From: a virus
DNA: 20,091 nt
Strand: one strand, 5' to 3'
Virus record (IMG/VR): IMGVR_UViG_3300005529_001115
Location: 1 to 20,091 of that record
This document shows, one piece after another, positions 1 through 19,895 of the stretch. Below the pieces are notes generated by a model. The model searched no databases, had not been told where the DNA came from, and was given only the letters and a program-made list of their open reading frames with translations. A program made the translations under genes and the position numbers. Position 1 is the first letter of the stretch, and every line of letters begins with the position of its first letter.

Positions 1-2370
1 TCATCGGAAAACTGCGTGTCGCTGAGCTGATAAATCTTGCCGGTGCCCGCACCGTTGCCGATAAACAACTGTGCCGTGCCGTCGCTGCGTTCGATAAGCG
101 CGGCGGAATTCGCGGCGATATTCCACGGCGCCCACTTGCGCCCCCGTCCCAGGCAAATCAGCCGCCCGGTCATCGAACTGGTATGCACCGAAGCGTACGT
201 GGCGATATCGGAAGCCGTCGAAAGGCTGCGGTAATCGAGCGCCAGCACGCGATTGGGTTGTGTTGCCGGAGCGATCGGCACGCCCACGAGAATACGCTTG
301 GCGCGCGTATCCACGCGCACCCACAGCGTGTGGCCGTACTGCCAGTTGATGGCGTCCCACAGCGGCTGGGATCTCCTGCGAAATTTTCACCGGCTCCCCG
401 CCGTCGAAAATGAAAAGCCCGGCACGGTCGGCAATCACCGCCCAATCTTCGCCGGTGTCTACGCCATCCACAGAAGGTGTGCCGGCGATGCTCGAAACTT
501 CGCTGAGCGTCCAAGCGGCGGGCTCGTTCACGCCATCGTCCCGCGTCGAATAGATCGAGTGCTCCTTCACAAAGTAGAGCTGATCGCGCAGCACAAACGC
601 GGCGCGCACCGCCTGGCCATTGTTTTCGGCAACCGAGAGCAGCCCGTCGACGCCGTCGTAGCTTTCCGGATCTTCGGCGCGGCTGGCGCGCACGATGCTC
701 GTGTTGTAAGGCTGCGCGGTAGGGAAAATTTCGATGTTGTCAAAGATCACGCCGCAATTCAGGTTCAATCCGTCGGCATATACGCGCAGTAGCAAATCCC
801 CGGGCACTGGCGAAACAATGCCAGCGGTGAGCGCGCCGATAAATTCCTGAAATTTCGTAGTGAGCGCGGTGGCCGCCACGTTAAAGCCCAGGTCGATGCC
901 CTGCGAGGCGCTGTAAAGATGTACGTGCAGATTCCCGGAAGTCGGCGCAGCGCTCGCCGGATCGTTCATGGCGCGAAAGCGCACCGAATACGCGGTATTG
1001 GGCTGAAGGATGGGCACGCCATCCGAATCGCGGCAGGCCCCCTGCGTGATCATGCCTTTGTCGTTGGCGACGCCGTCGCCGACGATCTCCCACGCGCCGC
1101 CCCAGAGTGCGCTTGCCGTGCCGGCCCCTGCGCCGCCGTAGGTATTGTCCGAAATCCACCCGAGTGGCGGGCGCACGCCCGGCCCGCTCGCCACAAATCC
1201 GCCGTCGAAGCTTAAATTCTCGAAATTGACGACCTGGTTGCGCTCGCCCCACCAGAAAAGGCGCGAAGCGTAACCGATGACGCCCGCGCATTCGCCGAGC
1301 TCCGCCAGGCGAAACAGCGGATCGGCCAGCGTGCCTGCAAGCAATGCCGTATCGGAAAAATCCAGCGTGATGCTCGTCGTGCTGGTATCGGCGATGATCA
1401 TCTGCGGAGAGTCGCTCTCGCCGCTCGTGTAATAAAACGATCCGCCGGCCGACGGAGTAAACGCCAGCACGCGCGCGACAATGTTGGCGTCGTTCAGCGG
1501 CAGCGGGATGCCCGTCAGTTGCACGCGGCGCCCGCCCGAAGCCGTCCACGTCACCGGCGGCGAGGGTTGCGTCAGATAACCTTGCCGTGTCTTGAAAAAG
1601 ACGCACACCTGATGCACTCCCGCGGAAAGCTGCGGCGCAAGCGTGGCCGCACCGCCGCCCGAATTGCTCGCCGCGCCGAGTTGTGGATACGTAAGCGTGG
1701 TCGCCGAGGGCACCGACTGCACGACGAATGTGCCATCGAACGAAGCATCCGTCACGCCTGCGATGTTGACCGACGCTCCGGGATACAGATTGTGCGCCGT
1801 GGTTGTGGTGATGGTGACGGTGTTGTTATTCCGCACCGCGCCCGCCGGCGAATTCGCGATGGTGTACACCGGCTCCGCTGGCGCGTCGAATGCCGTCACC
1901 GGACCCGCGCCCGGCCCGGTTTGGCTCACGCGATCGAGATTTGTGCCGTCATATTGCCGCGGGATATCGATGCCGAATTGTCCATCGTGAAAAGCGATGT
2001 ATTCGCGGCCAAAGAGAGTGGTGGATTTGGCGCGGCAGTTCGGCGCGATAAATTTTCCGGCCGCGCCGGAGTTGATCTGCGTCAGCGCGCCCGGCGCGAG
2101 TTCCGCCCAAAGCGATCCGGCGGAGTCGAGCGCCAGCATGGTCTCGGCGAGATTCGGCTGAACGAATGTCTTCAGATAGTTGACCGTCGGATTGCCCGCG
2201 ATCGCCGTGAAAACCGAGAGCAAGCCCGGGCGCGTCTTCACTGCGCCGGGCACAAACGCCACGTCGGCGCAGTCCGGCGAAGCTCCCGGTGGCAGATCAG
2301 CCGGAGCCACGTCGGTCACCAGCCCGCCGAAAATATCCAGCGCCGCGTCAGTTTTGCCAAGCACACCCAT
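1..2370 (-). CDS. Large virion (tail or tail-connector) protein, 3' end outside window, apparent frameshift near 369
   Basis: The gene starts at ATG 2370, preceded by GGAGAGG at good spacing; an upstream in-frame GTG at 2388 lacks this support. The product has at least 789 residues. From the N-terminus it shows a region typical of phage structural proteins, a small beta module (about residues 182-242, with VTITTTTAHNLY) that recurs in the spike gene, and a jelly-roll-like stretch (about 420-560) resembling carbohydrate-binding modules. It lies last in the minus-strand block, after the adaptor gene, so a tail or connector role is likely. The reading frame after about residue 667 becomes arginine-rich and implausible. 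Dropping one base of the GGG at 368-370 restores a coherent sequence (EIQPLWDAINWQYGHTLWV and on) that stays open to base 1. The true C-terminus lies outside the window. I infer function from context, not from a recognised family. Confidence 0.75.
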   Translation of the reverse strand: MGVLGKTDAALDIFGGLVTDVAPADLPPGASPDCADVAFVPGAVKTRPGLLSVFTAIAGNPTVNYLKTFVQPNLAETMLALDSAGSLWAELAPGALTQINSGAAGKFIAPNCRAKSTTLFGREYIAFHDGQFGIDIPRQYDGTNLDRVSQTGPGAGPVTAFDAPAEPVYTIANSPAGAVRNNNTVTITTTTAHNLYPGASVNIAGVTDASFDGTFVVQSVPSATTLTYPQLGAASNSGGGAATLAPQLSAGVHQVCVFFKTRQGYLTQPSPPVTWTASGGRRVQLTGIPLPLNDANIVARVLAFTPSAGGSFYYTSGESDSPQMIIADTSTTSITLDFSDTALLAGTLADPLFRLAELGECAGVIGYASRLFWWGERNQVVNFENLSFDGGFVASGPGVRPPLGWISDNTYGGAGAGTASALWGGAWEIVGDGVANDKGMITQGACRDSDGVPILQPNTAYSVRFRAMNDPASAAPTSGNLHVHLYSASQGIDLGFNVAATALTTKFQEFIGALTAGIVSPVPGDLLLRVYADGLNLNCGVIFDNIEIFPTAQPYNTSIVRASRAEDPESYDGVDGLLSVAENNGQAVRAAFVLRDQLYFVKEHSIYSTRDDGVNEPAAWTLSEVSSIAGTPSVDGVDTGEDWAVIADRAGLFIFDGGEPVKISQEIPAAVGRHQLAVRPHAVGARGYARQAYSRGRADRSGNTTQSRAGARLPQPFDGFRYRHVRFGAYQFDDRAADLPGTGAQVGAVEYRREFRRAYRTQRRHGTVVYRQRCGHRQDLSAQRHAVFR

Positions 2371-3893: not shown

Positions 3894-4023
3894 GTTGGGC
3901 CAGACCTGAGGAGCTTTTCGGGACGCCGCATTACACAACAAAGGCCTCGGGCCTCCCGCGGCTTCACGTAAGTGAATGCGCGTACGTTACCGGCGCGGGT
4001 GACCCGAGCTACTACATGGCTCT

Positions 4024-4075
4024 GTTGTCATCGCGAGCTCATCCGCGTACGCGGATGAGCGAGGGATCTGCAGTT
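4024..4075 (+). repeat. Family A palindromic element, copy 5
   Basis: GTTGTCATCGCGAG and GAGGGATCTGCAGTT flank a perfect ten-base stem: GCTCATCCGC (4037-4046), loop GTAC, GCGGATGAGC (4051-4060). Confidence 0.9.
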
Positions 4076-4087
4076 GTTTTTCGGGTG

Positions 4088-4112
4088 CCCACCCCTCGTT
4101 TCTAGGGGTGGG
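4088..4112. repeat. GC-rich hairpin (CCCACCCCT / AGGGGTGGG)
   Basis: Nine-base perfect arms (4088-4096 and 4104-4112) surround a seven-base loop. Similar hairpins lie at 16366-16390 and 16624-16647, and the context GGGTGCCC or AGTGCCCC is shared. Confidence 0.8.
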
Positions 4113-4314: not shown

Positions 4315-6336
4315 CTAACGCAACACTTCCCAATTCACCACCAGCCCCGAAGGCGTCTGCGAACTGGCCGTCGGATTGCACAATTTCCAGTTCACGTTCC
4401 CGCTGGTCACGTACGAACTCAGCGCCAGCAGGCCATCCGCGGTTGCGGGCGCGCTGGCATACGACCACTCGACGCGATCGCTGGTGAGCACTCCTGTCGC
4501 CGCTGTCGTCACCACAGACGCGCATGCTCCGCCGGCAATCGCCGAGCTGCCCAGCGTCGAAGTTCCCGCGGCGACCACTTTCGGCAGCGTCAACCCGCGA
4601 ATCCCGCAGAGGGCGCCCGACGCGCAGTTATCGCCGTAGCTCGCCAGGTTGTTGGCCCAGTCAGTGGCTTCGCTGTCGTTCCCCGGTGTGATGACGCATC
4701 CGCTCGGCGCGCTCAGGCCGCTTGCCGCGTTGTACAGAGTAAAACTCGTCGACGTCGGCGTGCCGGTGATCACCCATTCGCCGTTGTATCCGCTCACACT
4801 GCATCCCGAAATCACAACGGGCATGCCGCCATAAAGATTGTGTGCGGCGCTCGTTGTAAACGTGACCGTGTTGCCGGTTTCCGATGCGCTGGAAAATGTG
4901 GGCGCAGCCACCAGCGCCACATTCGACGCCGGGATGCGCACAAACATCGGGGCATACGCGTTGATCGGAAAGCCGGCCTGAAACGCCAGGTGAATTTTCA
5001 CCTGGCTCGCGCCCGCGGCAGGCGCGGTGACCTTCGCCAGCGCCCACAGCCACTGCCAATTCCCGTCGGTCTGATAGTAGGGACTGACCGTGAAGCCCGG
5101 ACCGGTCGCGCTGCCGCCGCTCGGTCCCCCCGCAAGCATTCTGATCGAAGGCTGATTGTTGACGAACTCGAGGCTGATCGGCCTGCCGAATACGCCGATC
5201 GGCGCGTTTCCGAATCCCGCCGTGCTTGCCGGCTGCGCCCACGCGCCGATGTAAATGTAGTCGCCCGCCGCAAACGTCAAATTATTGTTGTAAACGTAAT
5301 AATCGCAGCCGCCCGTGCCCGCATTCCCGGTGCAACTGAGTGTCGCCGCATTGGTCACGCCCGAACCGTCGCCCGGCCCCTGGATCTGCGTGAGCGTTGT
5401 GCCGGTGCCGTTATTCGCCACCCAACTCGCCGGATTTTGCGCCGCGAGATTGGCAAACCGCACGAAGCTCGCGCCAAAAGCTCTGCGGTATTCATCGACC
5501 TGCGGTTGCGGCAATCCATAAAGCCCGCCGCGCTGCGATTTCGCCGCGGGAATCACATTGGCGAGCGGCGTCAGTTCCGCGTAGGTCGGCGTTCCTCCGC
5601 TCGCGCTCGCGCTGCATGTGCCTGTGCCGACAGTGAGCGGCCCTTCGAGAAACGCGTAGTTTCCTCCTTGCACGATTCCGGAGACATTCGTATTGCAAGG
5701 ATCGTTTCCGGCCGCCACGCGCACCACGGGAATATTCGTGCCGCTGTCGGATTCTCCGCCTTCAAGAATGATGTTCGCCGCGAAGGTGCCATTGTTGATC
5801 ACTTCAAAGAGGGGCTGACTCGTGCCCGCTCCTTCCATCAGCGCACGGCGCAGATAAATGCTGGAGGTCACGCCGGTATTGGCGTCGAAGCGAACTCCGC
5901 CGCCTCCGGTGAAGAAAACGTGGTCAAAATAGATCAGCCCAAGCGCGGTGTTGTTGCCGCCGTTACTGAAATAGGCATTCGCGGCCTGGTTCGACGTCGC
6001 CGGGACTCCGGCGCCGTTTTCCAGCACCGAGTCGTGGATGTTGAACCAGATCAGATTCCCGCCCACGTCGAGAGTCGGTCCGCCGCCGCCCGGACAACTG
6101 ATCACGCACTGCGCGCGCAAATCGACGTGGTCGAATTCGATTGTGCCCGCGGGATTCGAGGAATTGACGCGCCCGCCGTTCGAGTCGATGGAGAGCCGCA
6201 CCGCTGCTTCTGCGGCAATTTTCACGCGGCTGAGCGTCACGCCGCTCACCCCCGAAAGCCACAATCCCGGCGTCGAATCGTTTCCGCACGCCAGCAGCGT
6301 CACCCAGCCATTGGTCGAAGCCGCGCATAAGCCGCC
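4315..6336 (-). CDS. Tail spike, central and C-terminal part (frameshifted from the 6300-7289 piece)
   Basis: About 670 residues continue the 6300-7289 reading frame in another phase, so this is probably the rest of one tail spike. It begins with repetitive beta-strand turns (WLSGVSGVTLSRV, IEFDHVDLRAQ, GLIYFDHVFFTGGGG) typical of a right-handed parallel beta-helix. A jelly-roll-like region follows (GDYIYIGAWAQP onward), then a small beta module (4699-4872) shared with the large virion gene. The last 90 residues (STLGSSAIAGGACASVV to VVNWEVLR) resemble a compact C-terminal domain I associate with phage tail fibres. No SD-preceded start was seen at its 5' end, which supports a broken gene over an independent one. 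Catalytic residues cannot be assigned; a host-surface polysaccharide is the inferred target. Confidence 0.75.
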   Translation of the reverse strand, partial: GGLCAASTNGWVTLLACGNDSTPGLWLSGVSGVTLSRVKIAAEAAVRLSIDSNGGRVNSSNPAGTIEFDHVDLRAQCVISCPGGGGPTLDVGGNLIWFNIHDSVLENGAGVPATSNQAANAYFSNGGNNTALGLIYFDHVFFTGGGGVRFDANTGVTSSIYLRRALMEGAGTSQPLFEVINNGTFAANIILEGGESDSGTNIPVVRVAAGNDPCNTNVSGIVQGGNYAFLEGPLTVGTGTCSASASGGTPTYAELTPLANVIPAAKSQRGGLYGLPQPQVDEYRRAFGASFVRFANLAAQNPASWVANNGTGTTLTQIQGPGDGSGVTNAATLSCTGNAGTGGCDYYVYNNNLTFAAGDYIYIGAWAQPASTAGFGNAPIGVFGRPISLEFVNNQPSIRMLAGGPSGGSATGPGFTVSPYYQTDGNWQWLWALAKVTAPAAGASQVKIHLAFQAGFPINAYAPMFVRIPASNVALVAAPTFSSASETGNTVTFTTSAAHNLYGGMPVVISGCSVSGYNGEWVITGTPTSTSFTLYNAASGLSAPSGCVITPGNDSEATDWANNLASYGDNCASGALCGIRGLTLPKVVAAGTSTLGSSAIAGGACASVVTTAATGVLTSDRVEWSYASAPATADGLLALSSYVTSGNVNWKLCNPTASSQTPSGLVVNWEVLR

Positions 6337-7975: not shown

Positions 7976-8572
7976 TTACGGAACACCAACAAATGGCACA
8001 CCGTGAAATGCCGGGCAGCCGTCATCCAGCACGTCCCAGGCCCAGGCGTCGTACTCGCGTTCGTTGCGGCGTTCACGCTCTTCGAGCGCCCTACGCCGCT
8101 CACCCGCGCTGGCGCGCCGGCCCGCTTCGATGGCGCGCGCGATGTATTCGGCCACCGTCGGCGTGAGCTGAATAAACTCGCCGCGTGGCCCTTCGAGCGT
8201 GAAGCAATGCTCGTATTCGCCGCGCTCGGGATAAGGTCCGAGCGCGGGCATGCTGACGCCGCCTTCGCGTTCCATGGTTTGCGCGTACCAATCTCGTGGA
8301 GAACCGTAAGCTTCCGGCGGCAGCCAGCGTTCGATGTGCCAGCGGTCGTGCGGCGTGTATTTCGGAACGCGCCGCAGCTCCACGGATTCGCGCACAAGTT
8401 CGCCGGCGGCGTTGCGGTCTTCCCATTTGCCGCCGACCCACGCCAGCCGCGACCATCCCCACACCGCGCGATAGTTCGGCTCGCCAAAACGATTTCGCCC
8501 GCCCGCGAGCCGCAGCCTTAGTTCTACAGAAGGCGCAGCCTGCTGCTGCTCTCTTATGACTCGTATCGCCAA
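7976..8572 (-). CDS. Hypothetical phage-block protein, probable TTG start
   Basis: The open frame runs up to 8734, but residues before 8572 are low quality and overlap the upstream region of the divergent gene. TTG 8572 gives a natural N-terminus (M-AIRVIREQQQ, 198 aa), with GGAA about nine bases upstream. The body has many aromatic and charged residues (AVWGWSRLAWVGGKWED, HDRWHIERWLPPEAYGSP, YEHCFTLEGPRGEFIQLTPTV). A long Arg/Glu-rich helix, probably a coiled coil, occupies about 130-175. No family or catalytic motif is recognised. Position suggests a late-operon accessory or minor structural protein. The start remains uncertain. Confidence 0.65.
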   Translation of the reverse strand: MAIRVIREQQQAAPSVELRLRLAGGRNRFGEPNYRAVWGWSRLAWVGGKWEDRNAAGELVRESVELRRVPKYTPHDRWHIERWLPPEAYGSPRDWYAQTMEREGGVSMPALGPYPERGEYEHCFTLEGPRGEFIQLTPTVAEYIARAIEAGRRASAGERRRALEERERRNEREYDAWAWDVLDDGCPAFHGVPFVGVP

Positions 8573-10424: not shown

Positions 10425-11681
10425 TTAGTAGCCCTGCGGCCGCGCCAGCCCGTCTATATACGCCCCGCTGCGCGGTGAATCCGAGAACACCTGAAATCCG
10501 GTGTCGAAGTAAAAAATAAAAGCCGCCGCCAGCCCGCCCGAAGTCCCATAAATCGGAAAGACGGTCTGATCGCCGACCTCGAAATAGTCGATATCCTTGA
10601 TTACCGCGCGTCCCCAGTGCGAAAGGTCGAGGAAGTCGACGCGCGTCTGGTCGGCATTGATCGAGGACTTGATGGGCACGCCGGCCATGGTTTTTCTTCC
10701 CGTGAAGAGCAGGTCGAGATTGTCGCTGCCGCCGCCCGGACCTTCCTTGATCACCTGGCTGATGGTGATGCCCAGATTTTCCCAGGCGTGCTCCTGTTCG
10801 ACCGAAGTGTACGCAATCAGTTTGCCGAGCTGGCCGATGCCCAACGCCTTGCGCACTTTGTTGATCGCCAGGCGCACGTACCCCGGCACCAGCGCCGAAT
10901 TCGCCGCATTCACGCGCGGCGTCTGCAACTGCTGCGGATAGGTCGCGCGGTTCAGGTTCATCCACGTTCCGGTGGTGGCGTTGTTCTGGTGGTACTTGAT
11001 GCCGAAAAGCGACGTAGGCGAAGCGCCGCTGAGCCCGTCGTGCACGATCACATCGGTTGCGACGGTGCCGCCCGGCACCGCGTCCACGGTAATCGTCTGC
11101 GTGGTGCTGATCGGGTCCGCAGCCACGACGTTGCACGAGCCGCGATTGGTGGTCAGCGTGGTGTCATACACCTGAATCGTCTGCCCGACGTAAACCAGCG
11201 CCGCGCCCGGCGGCGTATTCATCGTCAGCGTCGTGCCGCCCACCGAGCCGATCGTGCCCAGCACGCCGTTGCCGGCGGTCTGCAGCACTTTGTCCAGAAA
11301 CGCGCGGAACTGCTTCATTCCGTTGGCCACTTCGCGTTTGGCCGCGTTCTCGATGGCCTTCTCGCGCGCATTCGTCGCGTACTCGACCAGTTTGGAAATC
11401 TCCACCGCGAATCTGAAAAAGATCGGCGAAATCTGCGCCACGTCATAGCTCGTTCCCGAACCGCGCCCCAGATCGCCGCCGTCGGCGTTGTACGAGCCGC
11501 CTTTGCCGCCCGGATTCACCTGCAGCGGAATGCGCATGTTGCGCGAGCTGACTTTCTCCACGTCTCCGCGCTGCTGGATCATGCTGAGCAGGACGTCGTC
11601 GCGCTCGTACAGCAGCGGCACTTTGTCCCGCACCTTTTCCAGTTGCAGCGCAATCGTCTGCGTGTTTTGCATTTGCGCCAT
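10425..11681 (-). CDS. Major capsid protein (HK97-fold type)
   Basis: The 418-residue product begins at ATG 11681, with GGAGAA six bases upstream, and ends in TAA. The N-terminal region (1-60) is helical, leading to an E-loop-like glycine-rich stretch (about 56-80) and a long helix (about 98-135) matching the spine helix of HK97-fold subunits. Residues 137-217 form a beta-rich insertion (GTIGSVGGTTLTMN, VGQTIQVYD, TQTITVDAV), then the fold resumes (GYVRLAINKVRKALG, LGKLIAYTS, TMAGVPIKSS). The C-terminal FIFYFDTGFQVFSD resembles the final strands seen in phage coats. It sits between scaffold and decoration candidates, the classic order. It should form the capsid shell. No N-terminal cleavage region is evident, in keeping with use of a separate scaffold. 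Confidence 0.9.
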   Translation of the reverse strand: MAQMQNTQTIALQLEKVRDKVPLLYERDDVLLSMIQQRGDVEKVSSRNMRIPLQVNPGGKGGSYNADGGDLGRGSGTSYDVAQISPIFFRFAVEISKLVEYATNAREKAIENAAKREVANGMKQFRAFLDKVLQTAGNGVLGTIGSVGGTTLTMNTPPGAALVYVGQTIQVYDTTLTTNRGSCNVVAADPISTTQTITVDAVPGGTVATDVIVHDGLSGASPTSLFGIKYHQNNATTGTWMNLNRATYPQQLQTPRVNAANSALVPGYVRLAINKVRKALGIGQLGKLIAYTSVEQEHAWENLGITISQVIKEGPGGGSDNLDLLFTGRKTMAGVPIKSSINADQTRVDFLDLSHWGRAVIKDIDYFEVGDQTVFPIYGTSGGLAAAFIFYFDTGFQVFSDSPRSGAYIDGLARPQGY

Positions 11682-12047: not shown

Positions 12048-12650
12048 CTACAGATCCAGGATCTGCTCGTCGGTCATCTTCGAGTAATCGATTTTCCGTG
12101 GAAGCAGCGCGCTCGCCGGAATCGTCGCCGGCAAAGACCCCCCGGTAACATCCCGCCGCGCGGCGGCCGCATCCACGCGCGCCGCCCGCGCGCGGTCCGA
12201 AGCCAGCACCGATGAAGTCCATTCCGCGATCACTCGCCGCGCCACCTCCGGCATCGCGGCACGCGCCCGGCTCGTGATCAGCGAAACGACCTGCTGTCGC
12301 GTCGCGCCGTCAAAATTCCAGCCGCGCAGGATTTCGCCCACTTGCCGGCCGAGCTCGCGGTCACCGGAAAGTGTTGCATGCAACTCCTGGAAAATGTCAT
12401 TGCCGATGCGCCGCCGCGCGCCCTCGCCAATTTCCTCTGGCAGCGTAGAACTGAGCGTGCGGCCGATCGCCTCGCGCGTGGCACGCGCGACATCTTCGTT
12501 GGCCGCCGCCTCGAAGGCACGATACGCCTCAGCCGGAAAGGCGCCGGCGCTGCCGTTGTTTGCGGGAGCCTGGTTTTGCGCTGCCGCGTTCGCCTCCAGC
12601 GAACGCGCCGCCTGTGCCAGCGACTTCGCTGGCGCATTTGTGGTTTGCGT
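12048..12650 (-). CDS. Scaffold-like protein, C-terminal part downstream of an in-frame TAA
   Basis: The frame directly continues that of 12651-13334 and stays open for 200 codons after the TAA (12651-12653). The segment from 12650 to 12384 has no ATG or GTG; only a TTG at 12383 offers a start, deep in the sequence. It is helical and rich in Ala, Arg and Glu, with a compact block (LGRQVGEILRGWNFDGATRQ, ARRVIAEWTSSVLASDRARA) and the C-terminal peptide MTDEQILDL. That peptide also appears near the N-terminus of the other half. Phage scaffolds bind coat protein through such short terminal elements. The piece is probably the second half of one 428-codon gene; independent expression from TTG is less likely. 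Confidence 0.65.
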   Translation of the reverse strand, partial: TQTTNAPAKSLAQAARSLEANAAAQNQAPANNGSAGAFPAEAYRAFEAAANEDVARATREAIGRTLSSTLPEEIGEGARRRIGNDIFQELHATLSGDRELGRQVGEILRGWNFDGATRQQVVSLITSRARAAMPEVARRVIAEWTSSVLASDRARAARVDAAAARRDVTGGSLPATIPASALLPRKIDYSKMTDEQILDL

Positions 12651-13334
12651 TTAGCTCACGCCGAGCCGCCGCGCCAGTTCTGTCAGCGCCTGCGGATCGC
12701 GCTCCGACAACATGCGCGCGCTGGCGGCCAGCATTTCGCGAAATGCCGCGGGATCGCTCTCGTAAAGCCGCGCCGCCAGCCCCGAGCGCGCGCTCGCATC
12801 GCTGCTGAAGTAAGCGGCGTCGAGCGCGGCCACATTTTGCGCCGCTTCCCGCCATTGCCGCGCCTCTGCCGCAGCCGCGGGCTGCGGGTCGAGCTGCTTC
12901 AGCCATGCCGGCTCGCCCTGCGTTTCGCGCGCGAGGAGTTCCCCCTGCGCGCCTGCGCGCTCGGCGATCGATGGGGCAGGTGGGTAGGGCTCCGATGTCT
13001 GCCGGTTGTCGTGCGCTGAAAGTCGGCGGTTAGTCGGGCTTTCAGCGCTTAACGAAGTCGTTGTGGCGCCTCGCGAGCTAGACGAACTCCCCTCCAGAAC
13101 CGCCATGTCGTCCTGCGCTTGCCTTTGCTGTTCGTTGTCATTCTGGGGCCCGGTTCTCAGGGACGAAGCATCCCTCTGCGACTGTTGGGTTGTCGCCCAC
13201 GCCGCTCCGGCGTTCTGGCCCGGAGTTCCTGAGAATGTTGCTTCCAGATCACTCATATCGAGGTCGAGAATCTGTTCATCCGTCATTCCCGCCATGCGCG
13301 CCGCCGGCGCGCTCGCGCTGCTTCCCTGCTGCAT
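12651..13334 (-). CDS. Scaffold-like protein, N-terminal part ending at a premature TAA
   Basis: ATG 13334 is preceded by GGGAGGA. The 227-residue piece carries MTDEQILDLDMSDLEA at about 17-32. A low-complexity linker (about 45-115) includes RDASSLRTGPQNDN, which is encoded by a family A-like repeat (13134-13180). An alanine-rich helical region follows (LDAAYFSSDASARSGLAARL, MLSERDPQALTELARRLGVS). The gene lies between portal and capsid, the usual place for scaffold or scaffold-protease genes. No protease catalytic motif was seen. The stop TAA falls between two helical segments of apparently one protein. Confidence 0.7.
   Translation of the reverse strand: MQQGSSASAPAARMAGMTDEQILDLDMSDLEATFSGTPGQNAGAAWATTQQSQRDASSLRTGPQNDNEQQRQAQDDMAVLEGSSSSSRGATTTSLSAESPTNRRLSAHDNRQTSEPYPPAPSIAERAGAQGELLARETQGEPAWLKQLDPQPAAAAEARQWREAAQNVAALDAAYFSSDASARSGLAARLYESDPAAFREMLAASARMLSERDPQALTELARRLGVS
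13134..13180 (+). repeat. Family A-like sequence inside the scaffold gene
   Basis: GTTGTCATTCTG at 13134 and GGACGAAGCATCCCTCTGCG at 13161-13180 match a diverged family A unit. Read in frame on the minus strand it encodes the SLRTGPQNDN linker. Confidence 0.6.
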
Positions 13335-13353: not shown

Positions 13354-13415
13354 TCGTCATCCCGGGGAAGCTCGCCTGCATCTTCATGCGGGCGAGCGAC
13401 GAGGGTTCTGCTTTT
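13354..13415 (+). repeat. Family A palindromic element, copy 9
   Basis: TCGTCATCCCGGGG and GACGAGGGTTCTGCTTTT flank a twelve-base stem, GCTCGCCTGCAT (13370-13381) against ATGCGGGCGAGC (13386-13397), with one wobble pair. Its right end touches the portal stop codon. Confidence 0.85.
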
Positions 13416-16012
13416 CATTCTCGTAATTTCCCGTCGCCGGCTGCCGCAGGGGGCCGTTTTCGATTCGGCTGCTCACTGCCCTGCGCCTGCTGCCGCGCCA
13501 GGGCTGCCGCATGTTCCGCCGCGTGCGCGCGCACGTTCGCGAATCCCGCCGGATTCTGCGCCCGCGCGATCTGCCCCGCATCCGAACTGGCCCAACGCCG
13601 GCACTCCTCGAATTCCGTGGCGTGATCGTCCAGCAACTCATCCACCGGCACTGTCGAGCGCACGACCGCCGGCGCGCCGGGCGTGCCTTCCGCGCTTCGC
13701 CCGGCAGTTATGCCACCCAGGCCGAAGTCCCCGGTAAGGGGACCTTCGGCCGTCAAAAGAAGCTGTATCTCCCGCAGTTGCTTATTGCGCGCGTCTTCGC
13801 CCGGCACGACCAGCTCGCTCAGTCCCACCAGGGACTTGATGAACCCGAGATTCGCCGGCTCGCGCAGCGCGGCCTGAATTGCCGGATCCGGATTGGTCAT
13901 GAGTTGCTGTACGACGGCGCGCTGCTGCGATTTCAGCCGCGGGAATGTTTCGTCCGATTCGGGATGCGCCTGAATGTTGCCCTTGAGGTTCGCCAGCCGA
14001 ATGAACCGCGCCTGAAATTCGCCGCCCGCGCCGAGAAATGGAATCTCCACGTCGCCCGGCCGGTTCTTGCGGAAGCAATCCACGGCCAGCAGCATCACAT
14101 CGCAATAAAAAGCCTTGAGCCGCCGCCATACCAATCCGAGCCGCCCAAGCGCCTGGTCGCGCGCCATCGCGTAGCCGCTGGCCGTCTTGACGTTTTCCAT
14201 CTCGCCGCCAAACACGGCGGGAAAAAGGCCCGTCAGAAATTGCGCGATGGGACCGATCAGATCCTGCTGATGCCGCAGCATGTCCGGAGGTACCTGCGCC
14301 GGCGACGGTTGGAAAAATCCGTCGGCCAGCGACATGCCCGGCCGTGCCCGCGCCGGGTAGTGAGCCGCTGGCTCGGCCGTTTGATTCGCGAGGGCATCGA
14401 AATCCAGCACCTGCGGATCGGCATAGATCGGCGGAATTCCGTAATCGTAGGTCTCCGCCTGAATATTCGAGAGCGTGTTGTAACGCTCCTGCAGCTCGAT
14501 CAGCGAATCGCCCACGCTTGGGCGATTCTGCCCGTCGCCGGGCAGCGCGTGCATCACGCGCCAGCAGTCATCCATCGATTCGTTGCGCGATTCGCAATAA
14601 GTCTCGCCCGCAAACGCCACGTAGCAGCCGTCGGGAAACATGCGCAAAAGCTGGTCGCGTACCGCCGCGTCTTCGATGGAATAAAACGCCCACGGCCGGA
14701 TCCACGTCCGCGAAAACGTGACCAGATTGAAAAGCGCGTCCCCGGGATGGATCGTGGGCATCCCTTGTGCGACGGCAATCCGCGTCGCTCGTGCATACAC
14801 GTCGTCGGCTTGAATCGGGCCGCCCATCTGAATCTTGTCCGCCGCGTGCGGATAGGCGGCCTTGAGCTTCGCGCGGTGCACTTCCATCTGCCATTGCAGA
14901 TAGGGGAATTCGTACTGCTCGTTGGCCCACACCGGGGTGTTCAGCTCGAGACCGCCGACGATGGAGATGACTTCCTGCCCGTTGGCCACGCGCCGCGTGC
15001 CCACCGATTGCGGCACCGGTACCACCGGCGCCGGCCGAAAATCATTGGCCCCGAGCGCCGCGCCGCATCGCGGACAAATTGCCCCGGCAAAAAACGACGC
15101 TGCGCCTGCCGCCGGCCCCGTCCCCGCAGCCGCCCGGCCACTCCCGTTGTCGTTCTGAACGCCGCCAGGATGCACGGCGCCGTTTTCGTTGTCATTCCGA
15201 GGCGCGCTTTCCAGTTCCGAGGAACCCCGCTGCCGTATTTGCCTTTCTTCCGCACCGCGGTCGCTGACTTCGGTCTCTGCTCCGCAGTTCGCACACACAT
15301 ACGCATCCCGCCCCAGCCGCACCCAGCGCTCTTCGAGCAGCAGTTCCTCGCGCCACCCGAACCGCTGCCCGTCGGCCACGTACCGCACGTAGCCGCCGAT
15401 CTTTCCGTCGGTCCACAGATAAAATCCCACGCCGGTGAGCAACTGCTGCACGCGATTGTTTTGTTCCACCAGATCCGCTACCTGCGAAGCCGCCTTCGCC
15501 GTCTCGACATCGGCTTCGCTCAGCGTGGACTGCGGATAAAATCGCGTCGCCGGCACGTCCTGGCTGATCACCGACACAAACGAAAGCCCAAACGCCTGAT
15601 ACAAATTCGTGACGAACTGATAGCGCGGCATCTCCTCCAGCGCCGAGTCGTCGTAGATTTTCGCTTCCCACGGCAGGTGCCAGTTCATGTCCTGCGGATT
15701 CCACCAGGCGTACTGCAATCCCTGCCAGAAAAGCCGCGCCTGGCGAATGCGCCGGATTTCGTGCCGCCGCGCGACGATGCCTTCCTGCCGGAACTGCACC
15801 ACCAGCTCGCGCAGCGCGTTCACGAGCCGCGGCGCCGCTTGTTCGAGGCGCTCGTTGTTGGGACCGAGCGCCTGCGCGTTCGGATCGCTTTGCGAATCAA
15901 CGGCCAATGACGCACCGCCAACCTGCACCGACTGCGTCGACGCATTGCCATCGGCCTCGACGTGCGCGCCCCGCTGCGTGTCGTTCAAAATCGCGTTTTC
16001 ACTCGTGCTCAT
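13415..16012 (-). CDS. Portal protein, long form with an interrupted zinc ribbon
   Basis: The 865-residue product starts at ATG 16012 after GAGGGC and ends in TGA. It is large for a portal, closer to short-tailed-phage portals. Typical features are the early helical region with ARLFWQGLQYAWWNP (about 92-106), YQFVTNLYQAFGLSFVSVISQDVPATRFYP (about 131-160), and the later AERY/NVKTASGYAMARDQALGRLGLVWRRLKAFY wing-to-stem part. Residues 238-325 contain a zinc ribbon whose cysteine pairs, Cys240/Cys243 and Cys313/Cys316, are pushed about 70 residues apart by a repeat-derived insertion. The portal forms the dodecameric DNA gate at one vertex and binds terminase. It lies between the terminase block and the scaffold. 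The Ala/Gln-rich tail (about 825-865) is low-complexity. Confidence 0.9.
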   Translation of the reverse strand: MSTSENAILNDTQRGAHVEADGNASTQSVQVGGASLAVDSQSDPNAQALGPNNERLEQAAPRLVNALRELVVQFRQEGIVARRHEIRRIRQARLFWQGLQYAWWNPQDMNWHLPWEAKIYDDSALEEMPRYQFVTNLYQAFGLSFVSVISQDVPATRFYPQSTLSEADVETAKAASQVADLVEQNNRVQQLLTGVGFYLWTDGKIGGYVRYVADGQRFGWREELLLEERWVRLGRDAYVCANCGAETEVSDRGAEERQIRQRGSSELESAPRNDNENGAVHPGGVQNDNGSGRAAAGTGPAAGAASFFAGAICPRCGAALGANDFRPAPVVPVPQSVGTRRVANGQEVISIVGGLELNTPVWANEQYEFPYLQWQMEVHRAKLKAAYPHAADKIQMGGPIQADDVYARATRIAVAQGMPTIHPGDALFNLVTFSRTWIRPWAFYSIEDAAVRDQLLRMFPDGCYVAFAGETYCESRNESMDDCWRVMHALPGDGQNRPSVGDSLIELQERYNTLSNIQAETYDYGIPPIYADPQVLDFDALANQTAEPAAHYPARARPGMSLADGFFQPSPAQVPPDMLRHQQDLIGPIAQFLTGLFPAVFGGEMENVKTASGYAMARDQALGRLGLVWRRLKAFYCDVMLLAVDCFRKNRPGDVEIPFLGAGGEFQARFIRLANLKGNIQAHPESDETFPRLKSQQRAVVQQLMTNPDPAIQAALREPANLGFIKSLVGLSELVVPGEDARNKQLREIQLLLTAEGPLTGDFGLGGITAGRSAEGTPGAPAVVRSTVPVDELLDDHATEFEECRRWASSDAGQIARAQNPAGFANVRAHAAEHAAALARQQAQGSEQPNRKRPPAAAGDGKLRE
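15146..15235 (+). repeat. Family A-like sequence (two units) inside the portal gene
   Basis: GTTGTCGTTCTGAA (15146) and GTTGTCATTCCGAGG (15188) start two left-end-like units; the second ends with CCGAGGAACCCCGCTG. Read in frame on the minus strand they encode GSSELESAPRNDNENG and VQNDNGSG, which separate the two halves of the zinc ribbon. Confidence 0.65.
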
Positions 16013-16246: not shown

Positions 16247-16285
16247 CCTTTTTCGGGCTTCAAACTCGACTTCTAAATTCCCGCC

Positions 16286-16345
16286 GTTGTCATCACGAGG
16301 AAATTCGCTCGCACGATGCGAGCGAATGACGAGGGATCTGCAGTT
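16286..16345 (+). repeat. Family A palindromic element, copy 12 (identical to copy 13)
   Basis: The core is a perfect eleven-base stem, ATTCGCTCGCA (16303-16313) and TGCGAGCGAAT (16317-16327). The 60 bases, and about six more, are identical to 16551-16610. Confidence 0.95.
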
Positions 16346-16360
16346 GCCTTTGGTTTTTCG

Positions 16361-16392
16361 GGTGCCCCACCCATCGTACTTAGGGGTGGGTA
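16361..16392. repeat. GC-rich hairpin (CCCACCC / GGGTGGG)
   Basis: Seven-base arms at 16366-16372 and 16384-16390. It directly follows family A copy 12, in the same arrangement as 4024-4112 and 16551-16647. Confidence 0.75.
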
Positions 16393-16550
16393 TTGCCGAA
16401 ATGTGTTTGTAGCCGCGTCCTTCAGCGGGGTCCCCGGCACGCGGGTAGCTTCAGGGCGGCGGTTAGGCGAAGGCGCACTCGACCGGGCTTTAGCCCAGCC
16501 GCTGCACCACCGTGCGGCTCTCTATCACCTCCCGCCCGCACTGCAAAACC

Positions 16551-16610
16551 GTTGTCATCACGAGGAAATTCGCTCGCACGATGCGAGCGAATGACGAGGG
16601 ATCTGCAGTT
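16551..16610 (+). repeat. Family A palindromic element, copy 13 (identical to copy 12)
   Basis: An exact second copy of the 60-base element at 16286-16345, 265 bases away, again followed by a CCCACCCC hairpin. Confidence 0.95.
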
Positions 16611-16623
16611 GCCTTTTGGAGTG

Positions 16624-16647
16624 CCCCACCCCTTCTGAGGGGTGGGG
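16624..16647. repeat. GC-rich hairpin (CCCCACCCC / GGGGTGGGG)
   Basis: Perfect nine-base arms, 16624-16632 and 16639-16647, with loop TTCTGA. It follows family A copy 13. Confidence 0.85.
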
Positions 16648-16881: not shown

Positions 16882-17064
16882 TTAACTGCTCGTTTGCCGC
16901 AAATCGTTTCCTTCCTTTGCCCGCGCCTCCCGCGCCGCCTCAATTTCCCTTGTCATCGCAATCTGCGACCACGAACGTCGCCGTATCGGCGCAACCTGTG
17001 CCGGATGCAGCGGCGGCGTCTCGATCGGCGGAACGCCGGCCGTGCCCAGCAGCGAATTCAGCAT
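16882..17064 (-). CDS. Partial in-frame duplicate of the coiled-coil gene's C-terminal half
   Basis: ATG 17064 opens a 60-residue frame whose first 48 residues (MLNSLLGTAGVPPIET to EIEAAREAR) match the C-terminal half of the 107-residue protein at 17116-17439. The DNA from 16925 to 17070 matches 17165-17310 at an offset of exactly 240 bases, with four differences, all at synonymous third positions. The tail AKEGNDLRQTSS is unique. The frame is open upward to the TAA that ends the longer gene (17116-17118), so the two copies are in phase. It may be a separate short protein or the remnant of a longer one; no Shine-Dalgarno sequence is evident. Confidence 0.5.
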   Translation of the reverse strand: MLNSLLGTAGVPPIETPPLHPAQVAPIRRRSWSQIAMTREIEAAREARAKEGNDLRQTSS

Positions 17065-17070
17065 GGCGCG
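16925..17070. repeat. Direct repeat, left copy (about 146 bases)
   Basis: Matches 17165-17310 at an offset of 240 bases. The first 107 bases are identical; the only differences are at 17032, 17035, 17038 and 17065. Confidence 0.95.
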
Positions 17071-17115
17071 CTTGCACGCGATTAGCGTGCAGAACAGAAA
17101 GTCCGAGCGCAGCCG

Positions 17116-17439
17116 TTAAGTTAAGGGTTGCTGCTGTCCCAGACGCTCCCGCTCTCGTCCTCGGGCCTCCCGCGCCGCCTCAATTTCCCTTGTCATCGCA
17201 ATCTGCGACCACGAACGTCGCCGTATCGGCGCAACCTGTGCCGGATGCAGCGGCGGCGTCTCGATCGGCGGCACTCCCGCCGTGCCCAGCAGCGAATTCA
17301 GCATCGCGCGGTTCTCCGCGCGCAGCCACTCGATCTCCTGGCGCTCTCGCGCAAGCTGCGCTTCGAGCATGCGCACATACCGCCCGCGAAAACTCTGCCA
17401 CACCCGCGCACACCACTCCTCTATACGAAGTCCCGTCAT
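17116..17439 (-). CDS. Small coiled-coil protein between terminase and portal
   Basis: The 107-residue product starts at ATG 17439 and ends in TAA. Residues about 20-50 (RYVRMLEAQLARERQEIEWLRAENRAMLNSLLG) have a heptad-like pattern of Leu and Ile suggesting a coiled coil. A proline-rich stretch follows (GVPPIETPPLHPAQVAP), then a basic helix (RRRSWSQIAMTREIEAAREARGRERERLG). It has no membrane segment or cysteine pair; a single Cys occurs near residue 10. The upstream spacer (17440-17563) holds no clear Shine-Dalgarno sequence or hairpin. The place between large terminase and portal suggests a packaging or portal accessory role. No family is recognised. Confidence 0.65.
   Translation of the reverse strand: MTGLRIEEWCARVWQSFRGRYVRMLEAQLARERQEIEWLRAENRAMLNSLLGTAGVPPIETPPLHPAQVAPIRRRSWSQIAMTREIEAAREARGRERERLGQQQPLT
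17165..17310. repeat. Direct repeat, right copy (about 146 bases)
   Basis: The counterpart of 16925-17070, lying inside the coiled-coil gene. Confidence 0.95.
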
Positions 17440-19661: not shown

Positions 19662-19697
19662 CGTTGCTTCCTCTTCGACCATGCGCTTATGTCTGCC

Positions 19698-19895
19698 TCA
19701 GTTGTCATCACGAGCGAATCCGCGTACGAGGAGGAGCGAGGGATGCTTCGTTCTCTGTAGTCGGCGGGCTTTAGCCCGGCTGCTACATTCGCTTGACGCT
19801 GTCATCACGAGGGCCGGGGCCAGCGTTTGCGCCAGTTCCGCCGCTTTTGCGAGTGGGTCATCTGCCGGAACGCCCTTATCCACAGCGGCCCACAC
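19698..19895 (-). CDS. Short ORF running into repeats, possibly truncated
   Basis: GTG 19895 begins a frame whose first 30 residues look natural (MWAAVDKGVPADDPLAKAAELAQTLAPALV). The rest is encoded by a half family A element, a GGGCTTTAGCCC palindrome and the family A element at 19701, whose left end supplies the closing ...ARDDN and stop. It overlaps the end of the upstream partial gene by about 20 bases, allowing coupling. It may be the stub of a gene cut by repeat insertion, or spurious. Confidence 0.3.
   Translation of the reverse strand: MWAAVDKGVPADDPLAKAAELAQTLAPALVMTASSECSSRAKARRLQRTKHPSLLLVRGFARDDN
19701..19752 (+). repeat. Family A palindromic element, copy 15, with neighbouring half copy and palindrome
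   Basis: GTTGTCATCACGAGCGAA and GGAGCGAGGGATGC bound a core with a short CGCGTACG palindrome. A GCGGGCTTTAGCCCGGC palindrome (19764-19780) and a left-end-only family A fragment (19799-19811) follow. Confidence 0.75.

Follow-up and report, generated by a model that had tools for sequence, protein, structure and literature searches.

The window, which is the whole stretch of DNA that was analyzed, comprises the 20,091 bases of a virus record in IMG/VR that is listed without end repeats and is possibly a fragment. A presumed portal gene (13415..16012, minus strand) is named by its position, without a family match, and is intact when aligned with its relatives. The major capsid gene (10425..11681, minus strand; PHROG 14242, E 3.4e-07) is also intact and terminates with TAA. 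The scaffold gene studied here sits between these two genes, and the same gene order is repeated in the relatives. The window also contains a terminase gene (PHROG 979, E 4.1e-38). Relatives of the capsid protein were found in 71 viral loci as well as in 18 loci from genomes whose titles name Acidobacteria, Terriglobia or Candidatus Acidiferrum, and the latter make Acidobacteriota the most likely host phylum. When the second part of the scaffold gene and the capsid were compared by tblastn with 50,697 phage records, no match was obtained.

Several repeats are present in the window. Between the portal gene and the terminase gene lies a direct duplication of 152 bases (16922-17073 and 17162-17313, 96% identity). 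Other repeats, about 40-110 bases long and for the most part intergenic, are dispersed at 2394-2445, 4017-4112, 16284-16390, 16549-16646 and 19694-19744, with weaker copies at 13121-13190 and 15185-15233; a weaker repeat match (73% over 49 bases) joins low-complexity sequence in the scaffold gene to that in the portal gene. We take the dispersed repeats to resemble interspersed repeats of the host type.

The interrupted scaffold gene

The scaffold gene occupies positions 13334-12048 of the minus strand as a single frame of 227 codons, a TAA (12653-12651), a further 200 codons and a TAG, so that its 427 sense codons are interrupted solely by the TAA. The first part (12654..13334, minus strand) starts from the ATG at 13334 and is 51-55% identical to the four relatives L003-L006. 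The second part (12048..12650, minus strand), which lacks a usual start codon near its beginning, is 75-79% identical to the same four relatives and shares its frame with the first half. An initial reading of the sequence alone had described the frames 13334-12651 and 12650-12048 as being in one phase, parted by the TAA alone, with a coherent continuation after the stop, and the coordinates and the homologues agree with that description. The matches indicate that the continuation past the TAA is true coding sequence.

A codon scan confirmed the earlier observation that there is no in-frame ATG or GTG over the 267 bases past the TAA. The first in-frame TTG is at 12383, 267 bases downstream, and the first GTG is at 12341; upstream of the TTG there are just weak start candidates such as CTG, ATC and ATT. 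In all five of the closest relatives the position of the TTG is occupied by a CTN leucine codon, which indicates that TTG 12383 is a plain leucine codon and not a conserved start. These observations bear on a model in which the two parts are separately translated genes, with the second begun at a non-standard codon. Such an arrangement would leave each part with a structural domain and a terminal peptide of its own, but a start at the TTG would truncate the conserved domain, the preceding 267 bases offer no ATG or GTG, and the gene is never split among the relatives. We regard two separate genes as very improbable indeed.

To describe the uninterrupted protein, the intact homologue from L005 was modeled with 46 relatives. 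The model (mean pLDDT 71.3) is mostly helical and partly disordered: helices span residues of about 114-194 and 239-367, residues 198-228 form a linker of low confidence, and each terminal peptide has a short helix. The TAA of the window (12651..12653, minus strand) aligns with residue 199 of L005, at the start of the predicted linker. No usable match to a named family was found for the protein in Pfam, PHROGs, PDB sequences or Foldseek. The description of the gene as scaffold-like, proposed from the sequence alone, is supported by gene order, with a portal neighbor that is itself named by position, and by the predicted architecture, but no match in these collections names the protein. It would represent a scaffold-like family, lacking a named match in these collections, from a widespread clade of Acidobacteriota phages.

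The stop codon in relatives

The comparison covered 89 loci (L003-L091) matched by their capsid, among which there are many near-duplicates, so the counts given here are not dereplicated. Eighty of the 89 encode the part downstream of the stop site, and within this second part all 80 are free of stops. In 72 of the 80 the search also picked up the first part, without exception in one open frame with the second. Nine relatives showed no match to the second part. One of these, L084, begins too close to the capsid gene to contain the scaffold gene, and the other eight (L064 and L067-L073) have a single frame of 427-484 codons at the equivalent place. At the exact site of the stop, the five closest relatives have a codon for an acidic residue, Glu or Asp in L003, L004, L005 and L006 and Asp in L091. 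A comparison of homologues of the joined protein had been suggested, on the basis that a sense codon at this position in full-length relatives would indicate mutation or error, and this is the result that was obtained. A search of the viral collection for near-duplicates of the region around the stop returned none, and without one it cannot be claimed that the stop is private to one sample.

The sequence-only reading had offered two explanations, a nonsense mutation in one gene and a read-through of the stop that yields short and long scaffold forms. The homologues favor the former, or a sequence error. Programmed or leaky read-through of the TAA, which would give a short form of 227 amino acids together with a long one, is compatible with a second part that is in frame and under purifying selection, and with the location of the stop in the linker between two helical domains of the model. 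The stop is nevertheless absent from all relatives that encode the second part, the close relatives have a sense codon at the site, and the window, though it may be incomplete, contains no tRNA gene. We therefore consider read-through highly improbable, and there is no evidence for two programmed forms. A two-form protein made by recoding is known from phage P2, in which the tail/assembly protein occurs as E and E+E' through a frameshift, as described in PMC3091744. The two cases are alike in that one gene could in principle yield a short and a long product; compared with the P2 frameshift, the interruption in the window is an in-frame stop and is not conserved in relatives.

The dN/dS ratio over the 200 codons past the stop is 0.12-0.15 between the window and five relatives. 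For more distant pairs of relatives the same codons gave 0.12-0.17, and for three near-identical pairs, with dS of about 0.1, they gave 0.27-0.33. The second part is thus under purifying selection without a sign of relaxation. Conserved coding past the stop is expected under a recent lesion, an error and read-through alike. A long-dead gene would show a higher dN/dS, and the ratios suggest that the stop is recent or, as an error, absent from the organism altogether.

The explanation that best accounts for these data is a single scaffold gene of an Acidobacteriota phage with a lone premature stop in this record, that is, a nonsense lesion, either a recent mutation or a sequence error, rather than read-through. 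We assign it a probability of roughly 0.94. We consider the two causes about equally likely. In the first, a nonfunctional copy, such as a decaying prophage or defective virus, would have acquired a nonsense mutation recently; in the second, the metagenome consensus would have a wrong base at this position. A real TAA would give a product of 227 residues without either the conserved C-terminal domain or the peptide at the C terminus, and the better conserved half of the protein would be lost. Such a truncated copy should not build heads unless it is helped by an intact one.

The scaffold of phage 80alpha offers a comparison. In PMC5644958, its C-terminal residues are reported to bind the capsid protein, two mutations there are lethal, and binding is assigned to the last 16 residues of the 80alpha scaffold and of SaPI1 CpmB. 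By analogy, a real stop would likely abolish the function of the window's scaffold. The separately encoded 80alpha and SaPI1 proteins, as described there (PMC5644958), resemble the window protein as helical proteins with a short C-terminal peptide. The window protein differs in that searches by sequence and by fold linked it to no named scaffold family. A further difference is that the window scaffold has a similar peptide near its N terminus as well, with a putative role in binding.

Other lesions in the window and its relatives

Two further lesions were found in the window, both on the minus strand. One is a frame change at 6318..6336 in a spike-like tail gene, which is one frame of 1020 amino acids in L003, and the other is a frame change at about 350..370 in another tail-like gene, which is one frame of 918 amino acids in L093. 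When lesions were counted over six reference proteins, the window had three in 11,220 aligned bases, compared with five calls in 501,081 bases for 92 other loci; the latter count missed some damage (that of L091 and L084 was not caught), and diverged loci may conceal more. At the rate of the relatives, the Poisson chance of at least three lesions in the window is about 2e-4. Either decay of a prophage or a poor consensus would fit this excess. The five calls elsewhere are in the L004 portal, the L016 and L017 portals (one virus), the L023 capsid and the L058 capsid. Further stops, close to the beginning of the t241 gene in the window, L056 and L091 and of the L077 scaffold gene, were taken as preceding the true start, and a TAG flagged in two tail genes lies outside the alignments, which were counted from the start codon onward.

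An all-against-all scan for in-frame stops returned 170 sites, of which three were kept: the L023 capsid (n=65), L084 (n=8) and the window (n=6). The remainder rest on one or two query frames and were set aside as shadow frames. In L023, an in-frame TAA lies at 6280 within the major capsid gene, at a site that is Glu in 60 and Gln in 5 of the 65 aligned queries. L019 is 99.95% identical to L023 (7 differences over 13,254 bases), and the codon at this site is a sense codon in L019 as well as in L055. The comparison with L019 indicates that lone stops in essential head genes do occur in single records of this clade. L016 has an in-frame TAA at 2743, within a low-complexity stretch inserted in the portal gene, and L017 has it in common at the matching place; the two are 99.98% identical over 13,254 bases. 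Because the TAA is common to both, random error is not the plain explanation of every such stop.

The TAAs in these two other head genes, the L016/L017 portal and the L023 capsid, are what would be expected if TAA were decoded as an amino acid in this lineage, through a changed code or a suppressor. TAA nevertheless terminates the capsid gene of the window itself, as well as 31 of 78 capsid genes and 17 of 80 scaffold genes of the relatives, and the L023 site is a sense codon in the 99.95% identical record. Reassignment of TAA is the most improbable of the explanations considered, and barely credible.

The closest known parallels are the ordinary nonsense and frameshift lesions of prophages and metagenome consensus sequences, exemplified in this clade by the L023 capsid, the L004 portal and the L058 capsid. 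They likewise consist of a lone stop or frame change in an essential gene with conserved sequence downstream, and no distinction from them was observed save that the window has three. The stop is an ordinary lesion, real or artefactual, of one record, and one candidate for a new recoding event is thereby discarded.

In L091, the portal and capsid genes are disturbed. A piece of its scaffold gene (8170-8363, 194 bases) recurs at 10534-10727 with 94% identity, within the capsid gene, where it replaces capsid sequence. The copy may be the result of either recombination or an assembly artefact.

Similar peptides at both ends of the scaffold

The translated scaffold gene contains the peptide MTDEQILDL twice, once near the N terminus (13260..13286, minus strand) and once as the last residues of the protein (12051..12077, minus strand). 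A like pair at both ends was matched in 71 of 80 relatives, a count that includes L060, in which the N-terminal pick was false though the true motif is present. The remaining nine have the C-terminal copy only, and two of them, L078 and L080, begin at a contig end. A stricter form of the peptide pattern had no match in 19,955 residues from the middle parts of the scaffolds. In a permutation test on the terminal peptides, which was not corrected for shared ancestry and includes the false pick in L060, 5.55 of 9 positions were identical compared with 4.98, and none of 5,000 shuffles was as high. By eye, L064 and L067-L073 have different peptides that are again similar to each other at the two ends.

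One tentative reading of this arrangement, which we consider possible but on balance doubtful, is that the scaffold of this clade is a double-docking protein, in which the [LM][ST]DEQIL-like peptide at both ends may bind the same site on the capsid protein and so bridge subunits. A narrow literature search for scaffolds acting via 'both termini' found no paper. If double docking were true, the stop in the linker would yield a one-ended form. The two-ended peptide offers a testable feature of the scaffold.
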